Assembly: GCF_026343955.1 (NCBI RefSeq)
Contig: NZ_JAPKNI010000011.1
Coordinates: 62,001 to 126,000, forward strand
DNA from: Kaistia defluvii
GTDB taxonomy: Bacteria > Pseudomonadota > Alphaproteobacteria > Rhizobiales > Kaistiaceae
DNA length: 64,000 nt
Direction of reading: 5' to 3'
Shown here one piece after another: positions 46,152 to 51,289 of this stretch (position 1 is the stretch's first letter; every line of letters starts with the position of its first letter). Both the position numbers and the translations under genes were made by a program. The notes under the pieces are model-generated. The model worked only from the letters and a program-made list of their open reading frames with translations, ran no database searches and had not been told where the DNA came from.

Positions 46152-46709
46152 TCAGCGCGGCGCGCGCTTTGCCAGGATGCGCTGCAAGGTGCGCCGATGC
46201 ATGTTGAGGCGGCGGGCCGTCTCCGAGACATTGCGCTCGCACAGTTCATACACGCGCTGGATATGCTCCCAGCGGACGCGATCGGCCGACATCGGATTGT
46301 CCGGCGGCAGGGCGCGTTCGGTCGGATCGCGGGTCAGCGCCGAAAAAACCTCGTCGGCATCGGCGGGCTTGGCCAGGTAGTCGACGGCGCCCAGCTTCAC
46401 GGCGGTCACGGCGGTGGCGATGTTGCCATAGCCGGTCAGGACGACGGTGCGCGATTCCGGCCGGCGCTTGCGGATCAGCTCGATCACGTCGAGGCCGTTG
46501 CCATCTTCCAGGCGCATGTCGACGACGGCATAGGCCGGCGGCTTCTGGTCGACCTTGCGCATGCCTTCCGCCACCGAATCGGCCGTGTCGACGAGAAAGC
46601 CGCGTGCTTCCATCGCCCGGGCAAGTCGCTGCAGGAAGGCCTTGTCGTCATCCACGATGATGAGCGAGGTGTCCGTGCCGGCGAGACCGGCCGATTCCAG
46701 ATCTGTCAT
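46152..46709 (-). CDS. regA: RegA/ActR/PrrA-type response regulator
   Basis: Response regulator partner of the redox-sensing kinase RegB. It has 185 residues: a receiver domain with DDD at 20-22 and phosphoryl-acceptor Asp64 (AVVDMRLEDGNGLDVI), Thr (VVLTGYGNIA) and Lys (YLAKPADADEV), and a C-terminal Fis-type helix-turn-helix (SETARRLNMHRRTLQRILAKRAPR). The family controls respiration, carbon and nitrogen fixation and pH tolerance in alphaproteobacteria. The kinase gene is 134 bases upstream on the same strand. No senC gene is between them, unlike Rhodobacter. Confidence 0.93.
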   Translation of the reverse strand: MTDLESAGLAGTDTSLIIVDDDKAFLQRLARAMEARGFLVDTADSVAEGMRKVDQKPPAYAVVDMRLEDGNGLDVIELIRKRRPESRTVVLTGYGNIATAVTAVKLGAVDYLAKPADADEVFSALTRDPTERALPPDNPMSADRVRWEHIQRVYELCERNVSETARRLNMHRRTLQRILAKRAPR

Positions 46710-46843: not shown

Positions 46844-48211
46844 TCAACTGTGCGCCGAAAGGCCGTCATGGCCCTCGCTGAAATCCGATTTGCCGGAAAT
46901 GCCGAGCCGATCCATCGCCTCGCGCGACCAGACGATGCGCACAATCGCGCCATGCGCCGGCGCCTCGCGATTGGAGAGATCGAGCCGGGCGCCGGTACGT
47001 TCCAGCAGCGTCTTGGCGATGAAGAAGCCGAGGCCGAGCCCACCGGCCTCGTGATCCTCGACACCCTCGATCGTGCGGGAGCGGGTCGTGACATAGGGCT
47101 CGCCGATATGGTCGATCACCTCGGAAGCGAAGCCCGGGCCGTCATCGGCGATGGTCAGCGACACATTGTCCGCATTCCACTGCGCCGCGATCTCGACCGT
47201 TGTTTCGGCGAAGTCGACGGCGTTCTCGACCAGATTGCCGATGCCATACAGGATCGACGGGTTGCGGCGGCCGACCGGCTCGCTGCCGGCTTCGCCGCTG
47301 AACTTGACCTGGATGTCGATGCCGGTATCGGCATGCGGCTCGACGACCTCGGCCAGCATGTGGCTGAGCGGCAGGCGATCGACATGCTGGCCCGGATCCG
47401 TCGACAGCGAGGTCAGCTTGCCCAGGATGTCGCGGCAGCGCTGCGACTGGCTGCGCAGCAAGGCGATGTCATCGGCATAGGGGCTGCCCGGCGGCAGCTC
47501 GCGCTCCAGTTCCTTGGTCACCAGCGCGATGGTGGCCAGCGGCGTGCCGAGCTCGTGCGCGGCGGCGGCGGCAAGCCCGTCCAGCGCCCAGAGATGCTGC
47601 TCGCGCGCCAGCACCAGTTCCGTCGCGGTCAGCGCGTCGGCAAGCTGGCGCGCCTCCTCGGCGACGCGGAAGGCGTAGACGCCCATGAAGAACACCGCCG
47701 AGACCAGCGCCACCCAGACGCCCAGCACATAGAGATAAGGCATGGTCAACGCCTCGCCCTCGGGCCAGGGCAACGGCATGTGCCAGAGGCCGAGCGCCGT
47801 CACGGCGACGATCACCAGCCCGCCCAGCATCACGGTCAGGCGCGGCGCCAGCGTGGTGGCGGAAACAATGACCGGCACGATGATCAGGATGGCAAAGGGA
47901 TTTTGCAAACCGCCGGTCAGCGACAGCAGCGCCGACAGCTGCAGCACGTCATAGGCGAGCAGCAGCGCGGCGGTGCGGCCCTGCAGGCGCAGGCTGGAAG
48001 GATAGCGGATCTTGATGAACAGGTTGAGCCAGGCCGAAAGCGCGATCGCCGCCAGGCAGAGCCCGATCGGCATCGGGTATTCCAGCCAGAACCGGACGAA
48101 GACGACGGTGGCCGTCTGGCCGATGACCGCGAGCCAGCGCAGCCGGACCAGCGTGTCGAGCTTCAGCCGCCGCGCGCCGAAATCGTGCGAGGGGGGAGCT
48201 TGCTCGGGCAT
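46844..48211 (-). CDS. regB: RegB/ActS/PrrB-type redox sensor histidine kinase
   Basis: A 455-residue inner-membrane kinase that senses the redox state of the quinone pool. Six hydrophobic helices lie in residues about 25-180, with the ubiquinone-binding motif GGLQNPF at 100-106. The H box AAAAAHELGTPLA has His219, and the redox-active cysteine is at Cys259 (SQSQRCRDILGKL). The ATPase domain shows NLVENAVDFAE, ADDGPGFAS and GLGLGFFIAKTLLE. It signals through the RegA homologue downstream. Complete and normal in length. Confidence 0.93.
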   Translation of the reverse strand: MPEQAPPSHDFGARRLKLDTLVRLRWLAVIGQTATVVFVRFWLEYPMPIGLCLAAIALSAWLNLFIKIRYPSSLRLQGRTAALLLAYDVLQLSALLSLTGGLQNPFAILIIVPVIVSATTLAPRLTVMLGGLVIVAVTALGLWHMPLPWPEGEALTMPYLYVLGVWVALVSAVFFMGVYAFRVAEEARQLADALTATELVLAREQHLWALDGLAAAAAHELGTPLATIALVTKELERELPPGSPYADDIALLRSQSQRCRDILGKLTSLSTDPGQHVDRLPLSHMLAEVVEPHADTGIDIQVKFSGEAGSEPVGRRNPSILYGIGNLVENAVDFAETTVEIAAQWNADNVSLTIADDGPGFASEVIDHIGEPYVTTRSRTIEGVEDHEAGGLGLGFFIAKTLLERTGARLDLSNREAPAHGAIVRIVWSREAMDRLGISGKSDFSEGHDGLSAHS

Positions 48212-48341
48212 GACGCGTCACCTGACGTTGAAAGTTGCGCAATAGCGCCGGCTTATAGCACGTGCCGAACGATCTCAGGCGACTGCGAAGGCGCCCGCTT
48301 CCGCATGGCCCTTGCATCAAGGCAAAAATCGTCCTTACATA

Positions 48342-48352
48342 TTGCAATGCAC
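48342..48352 (+). promoter_or_regulatory. PhaR-like operator upstream of PHA depolymerase
   Basis: TTGCAATGCAC fits the PhaR core TGC-RNY-GCA. It is placed just after a weak TTGCAT-N17-TTACAT promoter (48312-48340) and about 80 bases before the start codon, so a bound PhaR would block the promoter. PhaR releases DNA when it binds PHA in other bacteria. Confidence 0.4.
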
Positions 48353-48429
48353 AAGGCTGGCCGCCGCCCTTACTGCCCGACGGAATACTCGGCCGGTCCG
48401 ATCCCTTCGCGGAGCGGCAGGTGGACGGC

Positions 48430-50097
48430 ATGATGGGTCCCTTATCCTACTATCAGCTCTACGAGCTGAACCATGCGGCGCTGTCGCCGATGCGGGCGGC
48501 CGCCGACATGTTCGGCCTGCTTCTGAAGAATCCGCTGAACCCGATGAGCCAGACGCCGCTCGGCCGCAACTGGCAGGCCGGCCTGGAGCTGTTCGAACGG
48601 ACGACCCGACGCTACGCCAAGCCCAGCTTCGACCTGCCGACGACGCTGGTCGGCGGCATGCGCGTGCCGGTCACCGAACAGATCGTTTGGCAGAAGCCCT
48701 TCTGCGACCTCATTCATTTCGAGCGCGAGCTGGAGCGGCCGCGCCGCGATCCCAAGCTTTTGATCGTCGCGCCGATGTCGGGCCACTACGCCACGCTGCT
48801 GCGCGGCACGGTCGAGGCGATGATGCCGCGCCATGACGTCTACATCACCGACTGGATCGACGCCCGCATGGTGCCGCTTGCCGAGGGCGGTTTCGATCTG
48901 GACGACTACATCGACTATCTGGTCGAGATCCTGCATTTCCTCGGCGACGACGTGCATGTGGTCGCCGTCTGCCAGCCGGCCGTGCCGGTGCTGGCCGCCG
49001 TGGCGCTGATGGAAGCGGCGGGCGACCGATTCGCGCCGCGCTCGATGACGCTGATGGGCGGCCCGATCGACACCCGAATCAATCCGACCGCCGTCAACGA
49101 GATGGCGCAGGGCAAGAGCCTCGACTGGTTCGCCGAGAATGTCGTGATGAAGGTGCCGTTCCCGCATGCCGGCTGCATGCGCGACGTCTATCCCGGGTTC
49201 CTGCAGCTTTCGGGCTTCATGAGCATGAATCTGGACCGCCACGTCACGGCGCATAAGGACCTGTTCAAGCATCTGGTCGAGGGGGACGGCGACAGCGCCA
49301 CCAAGCACCGCGACTTCTATGACGAATATCTCGCCGTCATGGACCTGACGGCGGAATTCTACCTGCAGACGGTCGAGACGGTGTTCATCACCCACGCCCT
49401 GCCGAAGGGCGAGATGACCCATCGCGGCGTTCCCGTCGACCTGACCGCCGTCCGCAATGTCGCGCTGCTCACCGTCGAGGGCGAGAATGACGACATTTCC
49501 GGCGTCGGCCAGACCGAGGCGGCGCAGCATCTCTGCATCAACATCCCCGACGACATGCGGGCGCATTACATGCAGCCCAAGGTCGGCCATTACGGCGTGT
49601 TCAACGGCTCGCGCTTCCGCGCCGAGATCGCGCCGCGCATCAGCGATTTCGTGCTGACGCACGATCGCGACCGCGCCGCCAATGGTGCGAGCGCCAAGGC
49701 CCCGGCTGCCAAGGCCCCTGCCGCCAAGGCGGAGCCCGAGGCCAAATCGGCGGTCACGCCCGCCGCGCGCAAGCCCGCCGCGGCGCGGCCTGCCAAGGTC
49801 AAGCCAGCCGCCCCGGCCAAGGCGACCGCCGCCAAGCCGGCCGAACCGGCCGATGATCTCAAGCGCATCGCCGGCATCGGCCCCAAGCTGGAGGCGAGCC
49901 TCAACGCGGCCGGATTCACGCGTTTCGCCCAGATCGCCCGGCTGACGGTGAAGCAGCAGACCGCGCTCGACGCAAAGCTCGGGCTCCGCGGCCGCGTGGC
50001 ACGAGAAAAATGGATCGAGCAGGCCAAGGGACTGATGCAGGAACCGACGGCCCAGCTACAGGCCAGCCTGGAACCTGCCCCCGTTTCCGCCGACTAG
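48430..50097 (+). CDS. phaZ: Intracellular PHA depolymerase fused to a C-terminal HHH domain
   Basis: Breaks down intracellular polyhydroxyalkanoate granules. Residues 1-415 match the PhaZ family with a Cys nucleophile: Cys181 (VVAVCQPAVP), Asp355 in VEGENDDIS and His387 in VGHYGVF. Residues 416-474 are an Ala/Pro/Lys-rich linker (KAPAAKAP repeats). Residues about 475-537 form a helix-hairpin-helix domain (DLKRIAGIGPKLEASLNAAGF, then QTALDAKLGLRGRVAREKW). Most PhaZ proteins end at about 410-420. HHH modules usually bind DNA or RNA, and granule-associated DNA-binding proteins are known (PhaM, PhaF). The ATG at 48430 is preferred; the frame is open further upstream. Confidence 0.9.
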   Translation: MMGPLSYYQLYELNHAALSPMRAAADMFGLLLKNPLNPMSQTPLGRNWQAGLELFERTTRRYAKPSFDLPTTLVGGMRVPVTEQIVWQKPFCDLIHFERELERPRRDPKLLIVAPMSGHYATLLRGTVEAMMPRHDVYITDWIDARMVPLAEGGFDLDDYIDYLVEILHFLGDDVHVVAVCQPAVPVLAAVALMEAAGDRFAPRSMTLMGGPIDTRINPTAVNEMAQGKSLDWFAENVVMKVPFPHAGCMRDVYPGFLQLSGFMSMNLDRHVTAHKDLFKHLVEGDGDSATKHRDFYDEYLAVMDLTAEFYLQTVETVFITHALPKGEMTHRGVPVDLTAVRNVALLTVEGENDDISGVGQTEAAQHLCINIPDDMRAHYMQPKVGHYGVFNGSRFRAEIAPRISDFVLTHDRDRAANGASAKAPAAKAPAAKAEPEAKSAVTPAARKPAAARPAKVKPAAPAKATAAKPAEPADDLKRIAGIGPKLEASLNAAGFTRFAQIARLTVKQQTALDAKLGLRGRVAREKWIEQAKGLMQEPTAQLQASLEPAPVSAD

Positions 50098-50164: not shown

Positions 50165-50638
50165 ATGTCTCATACTCAGGCCTTGCGTCCGGGATGGACG
50201 CCGCTCACCATCGCGTTGATGGTCCTCGGCTTCTTCGTGTTCTGGCCGCTCGGCCTCGCCATGCTCGCCTACATCATCTGGGGCAACCGGCTACCCGAGT
50301 TCCGCCGCAACGCCGAGGGAATGCGCAACGACTTCAAGCGCTCCTTCTCCGGCTGCGGCTGGCAGAGCCGGCGTGAGACGTCATGGGGCGCCTATCGCAG
50401 CGAGAGCGGAAATTCCGCCTTCGACGCCTATCGCGCAGCCGAACTGAAGCGGCTCGACGAAGAGCGTCGCAAGCTCGATGAAGAACGCGCCGAATTCGAG
50501 ACCTTCGTCCAGAACCTGCGTCGCGCCCGCGACCAGGAAGAGTTCGATCGCTTCGCCGCCGAGCGCGCCGCCGCTCGCCGCAACCAGACCCCGCCCGCGA
50601 CGGGCGACAAGGGTCCCGGCCCGGTGATCGATCTCTGA
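50165..50638 (+). CDS. DUF2852 membrane protein
   Basis: A 157-residue protein of the DUF2852 family, common in Hyphomicrobiales. One hydrophobic helix (LTIALMVLGFFVFWPLGLAMLAYIIWG) is followed by the conserved FRRNAEGMRNDFKRSF and a helical, charged stretch (FDAYRAAELKRLDEERRKLDEERAEFETFVQNLRRA), probably a coiled coil in the cytoplasm. GAAGG lies about 5 bases before the ATG at 50165. Function unknown. It ends in a good terminator. Confidence 0.8.
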   Translation: MSHTQALRPGWTPLTIALMVLGFFVFWPLGLAMLAYIIWGNRLPEFRRNAEGMRNDFKRSFSGCGWQSRRETSWGAYRSESGNSAFDAYRAAELKRLDEERRKLDEERAEFETFVQNLRRARDQEEFDRFAAERAAARRNQTPPATGDKGPGPVIDL

Positions 50639-50690: not shown

Positions 50691-50788
50691 CATTGCGGCC
50701 TCGTCGGCCCCGCCGCCGCGCCGGCGGAACCGTCTCGTCCCTCCGGGACTTGATGCTTCAGGTCCATCGAAAACGGGAGATGCGAAGC

Positions 50789-51289
50789 ATGAGCCGACTC
50801 AGCTTGATTCTGAACAAGATCTTCAAGGGCGGCGAAGCCCAGGCGTCGGAGCGCGCGCCGCAAACGAGCGCGCCGGCGTCACAGCCCTCCCCCGCCGCGC
50901 CGGTCCCCGGCGGCACAAGCCCCGCGCCGGCCGGCACGACCACCACGGCCAGCCCAGCGCCATCGACGCCGCCAGGCGTCAACCCGGCGCCCGCAGCCGG
51001 CGCTGGTGCGCACACTTCCACGCCGCAGGCCACGGTCGACGTGGCCGCCGTGCTGTCCGCGCTGGCCGCCAAGTCGCCGGGCAAGCTCGACTGGAAGAAG
51101 TCGATCGTCGACCTGCTCAAGCTGCTCGATCTCGACAGCAGCATCACCGCCCGCAAGGAACTCGCCAAGGAGCTGCACTATACGGGCGACCCCAACGATT
51201 CCGCCGCCATGAACATGTGGCTGCACAAGGCCGTGATGCAGAAGCTGGCGGAGAATGGCGGCAAGGTGCCGGCCGATCTCAAGGACTGA
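50789..51289 (+). CDS. DUF3597 family protein
   Basis: A 166-residue protein. The first 13 residues (MSRLSLILNKIFK) and the C-terminal 95 (VDVAAVLSALAAKSPGKLDWKKSIVDLLKLLDLDSS...NMWLHKAVMQKLAENGG) match DUF3597, and an Ala/Pro/Thr-rich linker of about 55 residues joins them. No signal peptide; the linker suggests a flexible spacer. The family has no known function; related C-terminal domains look like small helical peptidoglycan- or protein-binding modules. CGGGAG lies about 7 bases before the ATG, and a terminator follows. Confidence 0.75.
   Translation: MSRLSLILNKIFKGGEAQASERAPQTSAPASQPSPAAPVPGGTSPAPAGTTTTASPAPSTPPGVNPAPAAGAGAHTSTPQATVDVAAVLSALAAKSPGKLDWKKSIVDLLKLLDLDSSITARKELAKELHYTGDPNDSAAMNMWLHKAVMQKLAENGGKVPADLKD

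Follow-up and report, generated by a model that had tools for sequence, protein, structure and literature searches.

The closest described system is PhaH of Caulobacter crescentus, a PHB-granule protein studied by Salinas et al. 2023 and known here through PMC13052382 and PMC12028471. In the accessible part of PMC13052382, the N-terminus of PhaH is reported to bind the granule and its helix-hairpin-helix (HHH) domain to bind DNA nonspecifically, and deletion of phaH leads to disorganised PHB granules. The accessible part of PMC12028471 words the contact between PhaH and the nucleoid as a proposal. The granule tethers named in the part of the review that is accessible (PMC13052382) are PhaM, PhaF, and PhaH, and none of these is a depolymerase. 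HHH or basic C-terminal tails have also been reported, from sequence or models only, for PhaC of Haloferax mediterranei and for PhaC2 of Halomonas sp. O-1 and Cobetia.

Here, a PHA depolymerase (PhaZ) of Kaistia defluvii with a tail of the PhaH type is described. The parts are known. The pairing of a PhaH-type tail with a depolymerase is new as far as the open-licence literature search goes; no report of it was found among the matches listed. This work establishes the fusion, the predicted folding of the tail, its persistence in Kaistia, its kinship with the PhaH tail, and the lack of such a tail on the phasins of the same genome.

The phaZ Gene and Its Product

The window is the whole stretch of 64,000 nucleotides analysed (contig NZ_JAPKNI010000011.1, positions 62,001–126,000). 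It contains an open frame at 48262–50097 on the plus strand. The gene is read from ATG 48430; GTG 48262, upstream and in frame, is also possible as a start. The features of the gene, in positions of the window, are as follows.

48430..50097, plus strand: PhaZ-HHH gene, ATG 48430, 555 amino acids and stop codon
48430..49674, plus strand: PHA depolymerase catalytic region, residues 1–415 (TIGR01849, 643 bits; PF06850, 334 bits)
48970–48972, plus strand: codon of Cys181, invariant in 18/18 tailed PhaZ
49675..49851, plus strand: Ala/Pro/Lys linker, residues 416–474 (59 residues, net charge +8, one AAKP)
49852..50046, plus strand: HHH tail domain, residues 475–539, five predicted helices (PhaH C-terminus, 68.2 bits; alignments; AlphaFold2)
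49873..49887, plus strand: HhH hairpin GIGPK, residues 482–486 (K/R after GxGP in 30/31 distinct PhaZ tails)
49990..50025, plus strand: conserved patch GRVAREKWIEQA, residues 521–532 (G, R, R, W, Q, and A invariant)
50047..50094, plus strand: C-terminal 16 residues, variable among relatives (pLDDT block means 52–57)

The PhaZ family profile TIGR01849, whose cut-off is 300.75 bits, matches with 643.3 bits (protein residues 8–408, profile positions 2–403 of 406), and residues 210–410 match PF06850 with 333.8 bits. Judged by this curated-family match, the gene product is a complete intracellular PHA depolymerase. Cys181 lies in the motif VCQP (VCQPAVP), in place of the Ser of the lipase box, and is invariant in the 18 aligned tailed PhaZ, the window protein counted. 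We take this residue to be the catalytic nucleophile. By sequence search, the catalytic region has no match in the PDB. The segment 49675–50094 consists of the linker, the HHH tail, and the 16 terminal residues. The sequence-only reading of a complete Cys-type PhaZ joined through an Ala/Pro/Lys linker to an HHH domain is borne out by the TIGR01849 score and by tail matches far above chance.

Head-to-head with phaZ are genes for a histidine kinase and a response regulator (46844–48211 and 46152–46709, minus strand, assigned by Pfam), which we presume to be a RegB/RegA-like pair. The kinase motif HELGTPL occurs on the opposite strand upstream of phaZ in 24 of the 30 loci L003–L032, and in 0 of the 23 loci L231–L253. 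Because the motif is kept in 24/30 loci, redox control of phaZ is conceivable. On the 3' side, phaZ is followed by genes for DUF2852 and DUF3597 proteins (50165–50635 and 50693–51286, plus strand), and many of the loci L003–L032 likewise have a DUF2852-like motif after phaZ.

Sequence and Predicted Fold of the Tail

With the 65-residue domain as the sole query, the best curated match is the C-terminus of PhaH (68.2 bits, 1.1e-18; domain residues 1–62 to positions 171–232 of 234). C-termini of L21 (65.2 and 57.7 bits), NuoE (65.2 bits), and S2 (53.3 bits) are also matched. When the linker is added to the query, NuoE (82.4 bits) scores slightly higher than PhaH (76.8 bits); as the order flips, the ranking of the hosts is close. 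By profile score of the domain alone, the nearest curated family of the tail is the PhaH C-terminus. The linker as the sole query matches no curated family, and the domain finds no match in PHROGs. The match to Pfam HHH_5 (PF14520) stays below the gathering cut-off of 27, with 18 bits in the protein and 19.8 in the fragment, while L089, a relative with another host protein, exceeds it with 27.6 bits.

AlphaFold2 predicts five helices for the domain, based on 64 tails (mean pLDDT 77.8, pTM 0.57). A full-length model from 18 sequences has a low overall confidence of 65.8. In this model the tail is folded, with block means of 65–88 over residues 471–540, and linker residues 418–473 are all below pLDDT 50. 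The last DSSP helix continues to residue 547, inside the low-confidence C-terminal end.

None of the 165 Foldseek matches in the PDB reaches E <= 0.001, and the best is RadA with E 0.26. VIA-align places the domain on RadA (3ntu, Z 8.2, rmsd 3.9 over 69), polymerase theta (8.2), NusA AR2 (Z 7.4, rmsd 2.1 over 61 residues), and Hel308 (6.8). At such Z scores, the matches may share no more than a common arrangement. SAM domains are also present among the weak fold matches. An (HhH)2-type fold similar to those of RadA and the NusA AR domain may lie behind these weak matches. RadA and Hel308 act on DNA, and NusA AR2 is bound to the protein SuhB in a solved complex. The fold thus cannot choose between DNA and protein as the ligand.

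Other Proteins with the Same Domain

The best 80 of 488 loci with the tail comprise 35 nuo-operon proteins, 19 PhaZ, 10 NuoE, 4 L21, and 12 membrane-anchored or unassigned proteins; this best-scoring sample is skewed to tails resembling that of the window. Among the matches listed in a separate search of relatives, tails were read from another 80 stretches, 18 tail places, and 2 PhaZ stretches. Host classes are assigned by short sequence patterns, and the class 'other' is mixed and largely membrane-anchored. The domain has PDB counterparts in a chain labelled as a complex I subunit and in protein-O, which belongs to the RC-LH1 complex of D. shibae. The paper on the D. shibae reaction centre calls the function of the domain obscure. 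Among plasmids, 8 records match the tail, and the annotation of one of them is NADH:ubiquinone oxidoreductase.

In the 35 loci of Rhizobiaceae and Mesorhizobium (L043:2389-3201, L054, L084, L101, and others), the product encoded just 3' of nuoF is a small tailed protein whose N-terminal part contains a hydrophobic stretch. These proteins were once considered phasins. This assignment is rejected, as a NuoF motif lies 1.6–1.8 kb upstream of the tail in 35/35 loci, which makes them nuo-operon proteins. For six of the set, the match to PhaH begins no earlier than profile position 68, 78, 95, 103, 119, or 129, and so covers just the linker and tail part. The idea that one granule protein per genome, either phasin or PhaZ, carries the tail was withdrawn with this reassignment. 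In 23 of 23 further genomes (21 of the 35 with the nuo-operon protein, and those of L089 and L102), PhaZ is without a tail.

Tailed ribosomal proteins S2, L19, and L21 are seen in many related genomes (L147–L226, e.g., L169, L186, L195, L208 for L19, and L147, L154 for S2). In S2 and L21 tails, the hairpin Lys is replaced, mostly by Val. The linkers of L19 are strongly basic, with a median of +17 over the 50 residues before the domain. A membrane-anchored protein of 549 residues (L209:411-2057, plus strand) has two copies of the HHH tail domain, and paired in-frame copies are also present in genomes G035, G038, and G028.

The tail profile has five matches in the genome of the window: PhaZ (112 bits), L21 (98), a protein that is membrane-anchored by hydrophobicity (36), a DNA polymerase IV-like protein (21 bits), and one weak match (15.7 bits). 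PhaZ is the sole recognisable granule protein among them. In the same genome, the tail is found on 0 of the 4 Phasin_2 proteins, and no PhaH match reaches the cut-off.

Conservation and Charge

The hairpin and charge counts by host class, like the tail tree below, leave out rows below 60 bits; this removed one PhaZ tail (L292), which was read separately. In 64 tails of mixed hosts, L292 not among them, every lettered position of GR..R..W..QA is invariant, as is each hairpin glycine. The patch is outside the hairpin, and its conservation across hosts hints at a second, shared binding surface. The residue after GxGP is K/R in 30 of 31 distinct PhaZ tails. It is Lys in 31/31 nuo-operon tails of the matching pattern and K/R in 52/62 NuoE tails, whereas none of 27 S2 and 29 L21 tails has either residue. 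A further comparison of host classes, in which ribosomal and non-ribosomal tails also differ at the hairpin, omits 'other' rows, and just 2 of 8 L19 tails fitted its pattern. In other HhH proteins, the hairpin Lys contacts phosphate.

Across host classes, the domain has a median net charge of 0 for PhaZ, −1 for NuoE, −2 for S2, −2.5 for L21, and −4.5 for L19. In the window protein, the net charge is +6 for the domain and +8 for the linker. Against the PhaZ median of 0, the window protein is among the most basic members of a family that, taken as a whole, is not basic. Eight close relatives (L010–L017) keep the HHH domain, with a net charge of only −2 to +2 over linker and tail; for L010, L012, and L014 it is −2 to 0.

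Between the window protein and its six nearest relatives (L004–L009), dN/dS is about 0.05–0.33 for the tail (dN 0.02–0.24, dS 0.37–0.92) and about 0.1–0.8 for the linker (dN 0.02–0.78, dS 0.20–1.42). Against seven more distant Kaistia relatives (L010–L013 and L015–L017, making 13 comparisons in all), the ratios are about 0.2–0.75 for the tail, 0.4–0.7 for the linker, and near 0.13–0.27 for the catalytic region. From these ratios, the tail is clearly constrained just among the nearest species; it has diverged between two Kaistia groups, with the motif positions kept. The linker sequence appears to be under little constraint.

Distribution of the Tail on PhaZ

The sequence-only reading proposed a survey of the fusion in related PhaZ proteins, and it was run here. 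A PhaZ-length match is found in 52 of the 61 genomes searched, the genome of the window counted; the tail is present in 26 of these 52 and absent in 26. In Kaistia, it is present in 14/14 genomes searched. The tailed PhaZ are the sum of 22 and those of G034, G054, G060, and G050, in the last of which the tail falls at the start of another contig. The untailed PhaZ are the sum of 7 and 19; the 19 are without a tail-profile match, and four of them are outside the PhaZ pattern used. Among the best 80 of 488 loci, tailed PhaZ are also seen in Prosthecomicrobium, Bauldia, Roseibium, Methylopila, and Chthonobacter; there, the nearest named records are Kaistia, with K. terrae at 86% over the tail. 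Judging from its absence in 26/52 and in the 23/23 further PhaZ, the tail is dispensable for depolymerase function.

One PhaZ tail (L292:273-1913, minus strand, in G054) is degenerate: it scores 44.5 bits, contains Ala at the position of the hairpin Lys, and has no GR..R. The net charge after its catalytic domain is −11.

Seven untailed PhaZ of the same family or order (L020, L023, L025, L026, L031, L032, and L315) have a basic extension of +7 to +11. The C-terminal extensions of L020, L025, L026, L031, and L315 have a net charge of +9 to +11. Other untailed PhaZ, e.g., L318 and L329, have no such basic extension. The basic extension would agree with a looser tether as well as with none.

The PhaZ tree (80 rows) cannot be explained by fewer than 6 changes of tail state, and well-supported branches force 2 of these. 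The tail tree of 62 columns is poorly resolved and compatible with one origin; in it, L192 is labelled PhaZ by a loose pattern, and nuo-operon rows such as L059, L076, and L092 are placed under 'other'. Both are quick trees under a simple model without bootstrap. With at least 6 changes in the PhaZ tree, the tail may have been gained or lost on PhaZ.

Possible Functions of the Tail

The reading favoured here is that the tail is a nucleoid tether. The catalytic domain would act at the surface of the PHB granule and carry, on a flexible string of about 59 residues, the PhaH-type HHH domain. This domain would bind nucleic acid, most likely duplex DNA, without sequence preference, and could thereby hold PhaZ, and perhaps the granule too, against the nucleoid. 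By homology to PhaH, a depolymerase held on the nucleoid is plausible, and we give the tether about an even chance of being right. DNA binding, tethering, and an effect of the tether on granule position or turnover are what we infer.

The tether is favoured because binding of DNA by PhaH is the only function found reported for the subfamily, and PhaZ has the same domain with the hairpin Lys kept. The presence of K/R at the hairpin in 30/31 PhaZ tails, against none of the S2 and L21 tails, points the same way. So do the basic domain and linker of the window protein, the constraint on the tail against the six nearest relatives, the HHH or basic tails reported on other granule enzymes (PhaC and PhaC2), and the basic extension kept by seven untailed PhaZ. 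The genome of the window also agrees, since its four phasins are untailed, no PhaH reaches the cut-off, and PhaZ is the sole recognisable granule protein with the tail. Several facts weaken the tether. The same domain is on S2, L19, L21, NuoE, nuo-operon, and membrane-anchored proteins, and the hairpin K/R, being frequent in NuoE and nuo-operon tails, does not set granule proteins apart. The universally conserved patch is outside the hairpin. Linkers within Kaistia are not uniformly basic, and with a median charge of 0 the PhaZ tail domain is not generally basic. Against the seven distant relatives, dN/dS of the tail is no lower than that of the linker, the tail of L292 is degenerate at both motifs, the fold also matches protein-bound NusA AR2, and half of the 52 PhaZ and all of the 23 further ones are untailed. 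As the domain is also on ribosomal, NuoE, and membrane-anchored proteins, its general role may be another than nucleoid tethering, which does not explain a spread over hosts of ribosomal, respiratory, and membrane kinds.

The strongest rival to the tether is a protein partner common to the tailed hosts. The tail would then be a general docking module, similar to the NusA AR domain in its fold and in making protein contacts, and one alphaproteobacterial partner would recognise the GR..R..W..QA face, linking PhaZ, NuoE, protein-O, L21, L19, and S2. The diversity of the hosts, the alignment with NusA AR2, and the invariance of this face in the 64 mixed-host tails, unlike the hairpin Lys, are consistent with such docking. 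The PhaH tail is, however, reported to bind DNA in the accessible part of PMC13052382, and the difference at the hairpin between ribosomal and non-ribosomal tails indicates that the ligands may differ. Docking is possible, and clearly less probable than the tether. It is also rather unlikely, though conceivable, that this one mobile C-terminal domain is a common addressing tag in Alphaproteobacteria, bringing PhaZ, a phasin, complex I, a reaction-centre subunit, and S2, L19, and L21 to the same scaffold, be it the nucleoid or a partner. If so, the tails of PhaZ and PhaH would be two separate recruitments to the storage granule.

The sequence-only reading suggested that the fusion places the depolymerase on DNA, or that the Lys-rich linker binds DNA electrostatically. 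Binding of the latter kind is said of the histone-like tails of PhaF and PhaM. The first part is strengthened by the membership of the tail in the PhaH HHH subfamily (68.2 bits), with PhaH reported to bind DNA. The linker part is not supported. The linker of the window protein has a charge of +8 and one AAKP, and seven untailed PhaZ have extensions of +7 to +11, as binding by the linker would have it. Its sequence is little constrained, though, and L010–L017 keep the HHH domain at near-neutral charge, with L010, L012, and L014 reaching no positive value over linker and tail. As the linker is not consistently basic within Kaistia, electrostatics alone is unlikely, and we consider binding by the linker improbable. 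Equally doubtful is a role inside the depolymerase, such as oligomerisation, autoinhibition, or stability, with no external ligand. SAM domains can self-associate, and their presence among the weak fold matches would agree with this role. A disordered linker separates the tail from the enzyme in the model, the domain is common to unrelated hosts, and 26 of the 52 related PhaZ are without it, all of which argues against an intramolecular function.

If the tether is true, breakdown as well as storage would be brought to the nucleoid. What the domain does on complex I and on reaction centres is treated as open in the literature, and a small soluble PhaZ with a removable tail is an easy test case.

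Comparison with Known Systems

The C-terminal domain of protein-O in the RC-LH1 complex of D. shibae (8YY9, chain O) belongs to the same subfamily (phmmer 5.5e-11; profile 1.6e-22). Protein-O differs in being a membrane protein of a photosynthetic complex, and its tail is unresolved in the map. According to the reaction-centre paper, it is encoded between nuoE and nuoF in Dinoroseobacter; it is comparable to the tailed nuo-operon proteins of Rhizobiaceae and Mesorhizobium. Tailed NuoE, L21, S2, and L19 of Alphaproteobacteria (NF009040, NF008915/6, NF008966) share the same C-terminal domain on a linker. Their hosts are other proteins, and the S2 and L21 tails examined are without the hairpin Lys.

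PhaF and PhaM are granule proteins reported, in the accessible part of PMC13052382, to bind DNA through the C-terminus; they have histone-like tails instead of HHH and are not depolymerases. The tailed PHA synthases (PhaC of Haloferax, PhaC2 of Halomonas and Cobetia) are granule enzymes with an HHH or basic tail, for which DNA binding was proposed without experiment. They are synthases and not depolymerases, and they are likened here by the described type of tail, not by subfamily.

Besides the Caulobacter vibrioides control, true PhaH is found in 0 of 385 genomes of the class (E 1e-30) and in none of 60 genomes from the family to which G476 belongs (1e-25). Compared by the curated profile alone (NF045508), the window protein and PhaH are both PHB-granule proteins with a C-terminal HHH domain of the same subfamily. 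The whole window protein scores 74.8 bits against the cut-off of 250 of this profile, and the N-terminal half is a phasin in PhaH and a depolymerase in the window protein. With the linker included, the match starts at PhaH position 120, which suggests that the two proteins have similar linkers.
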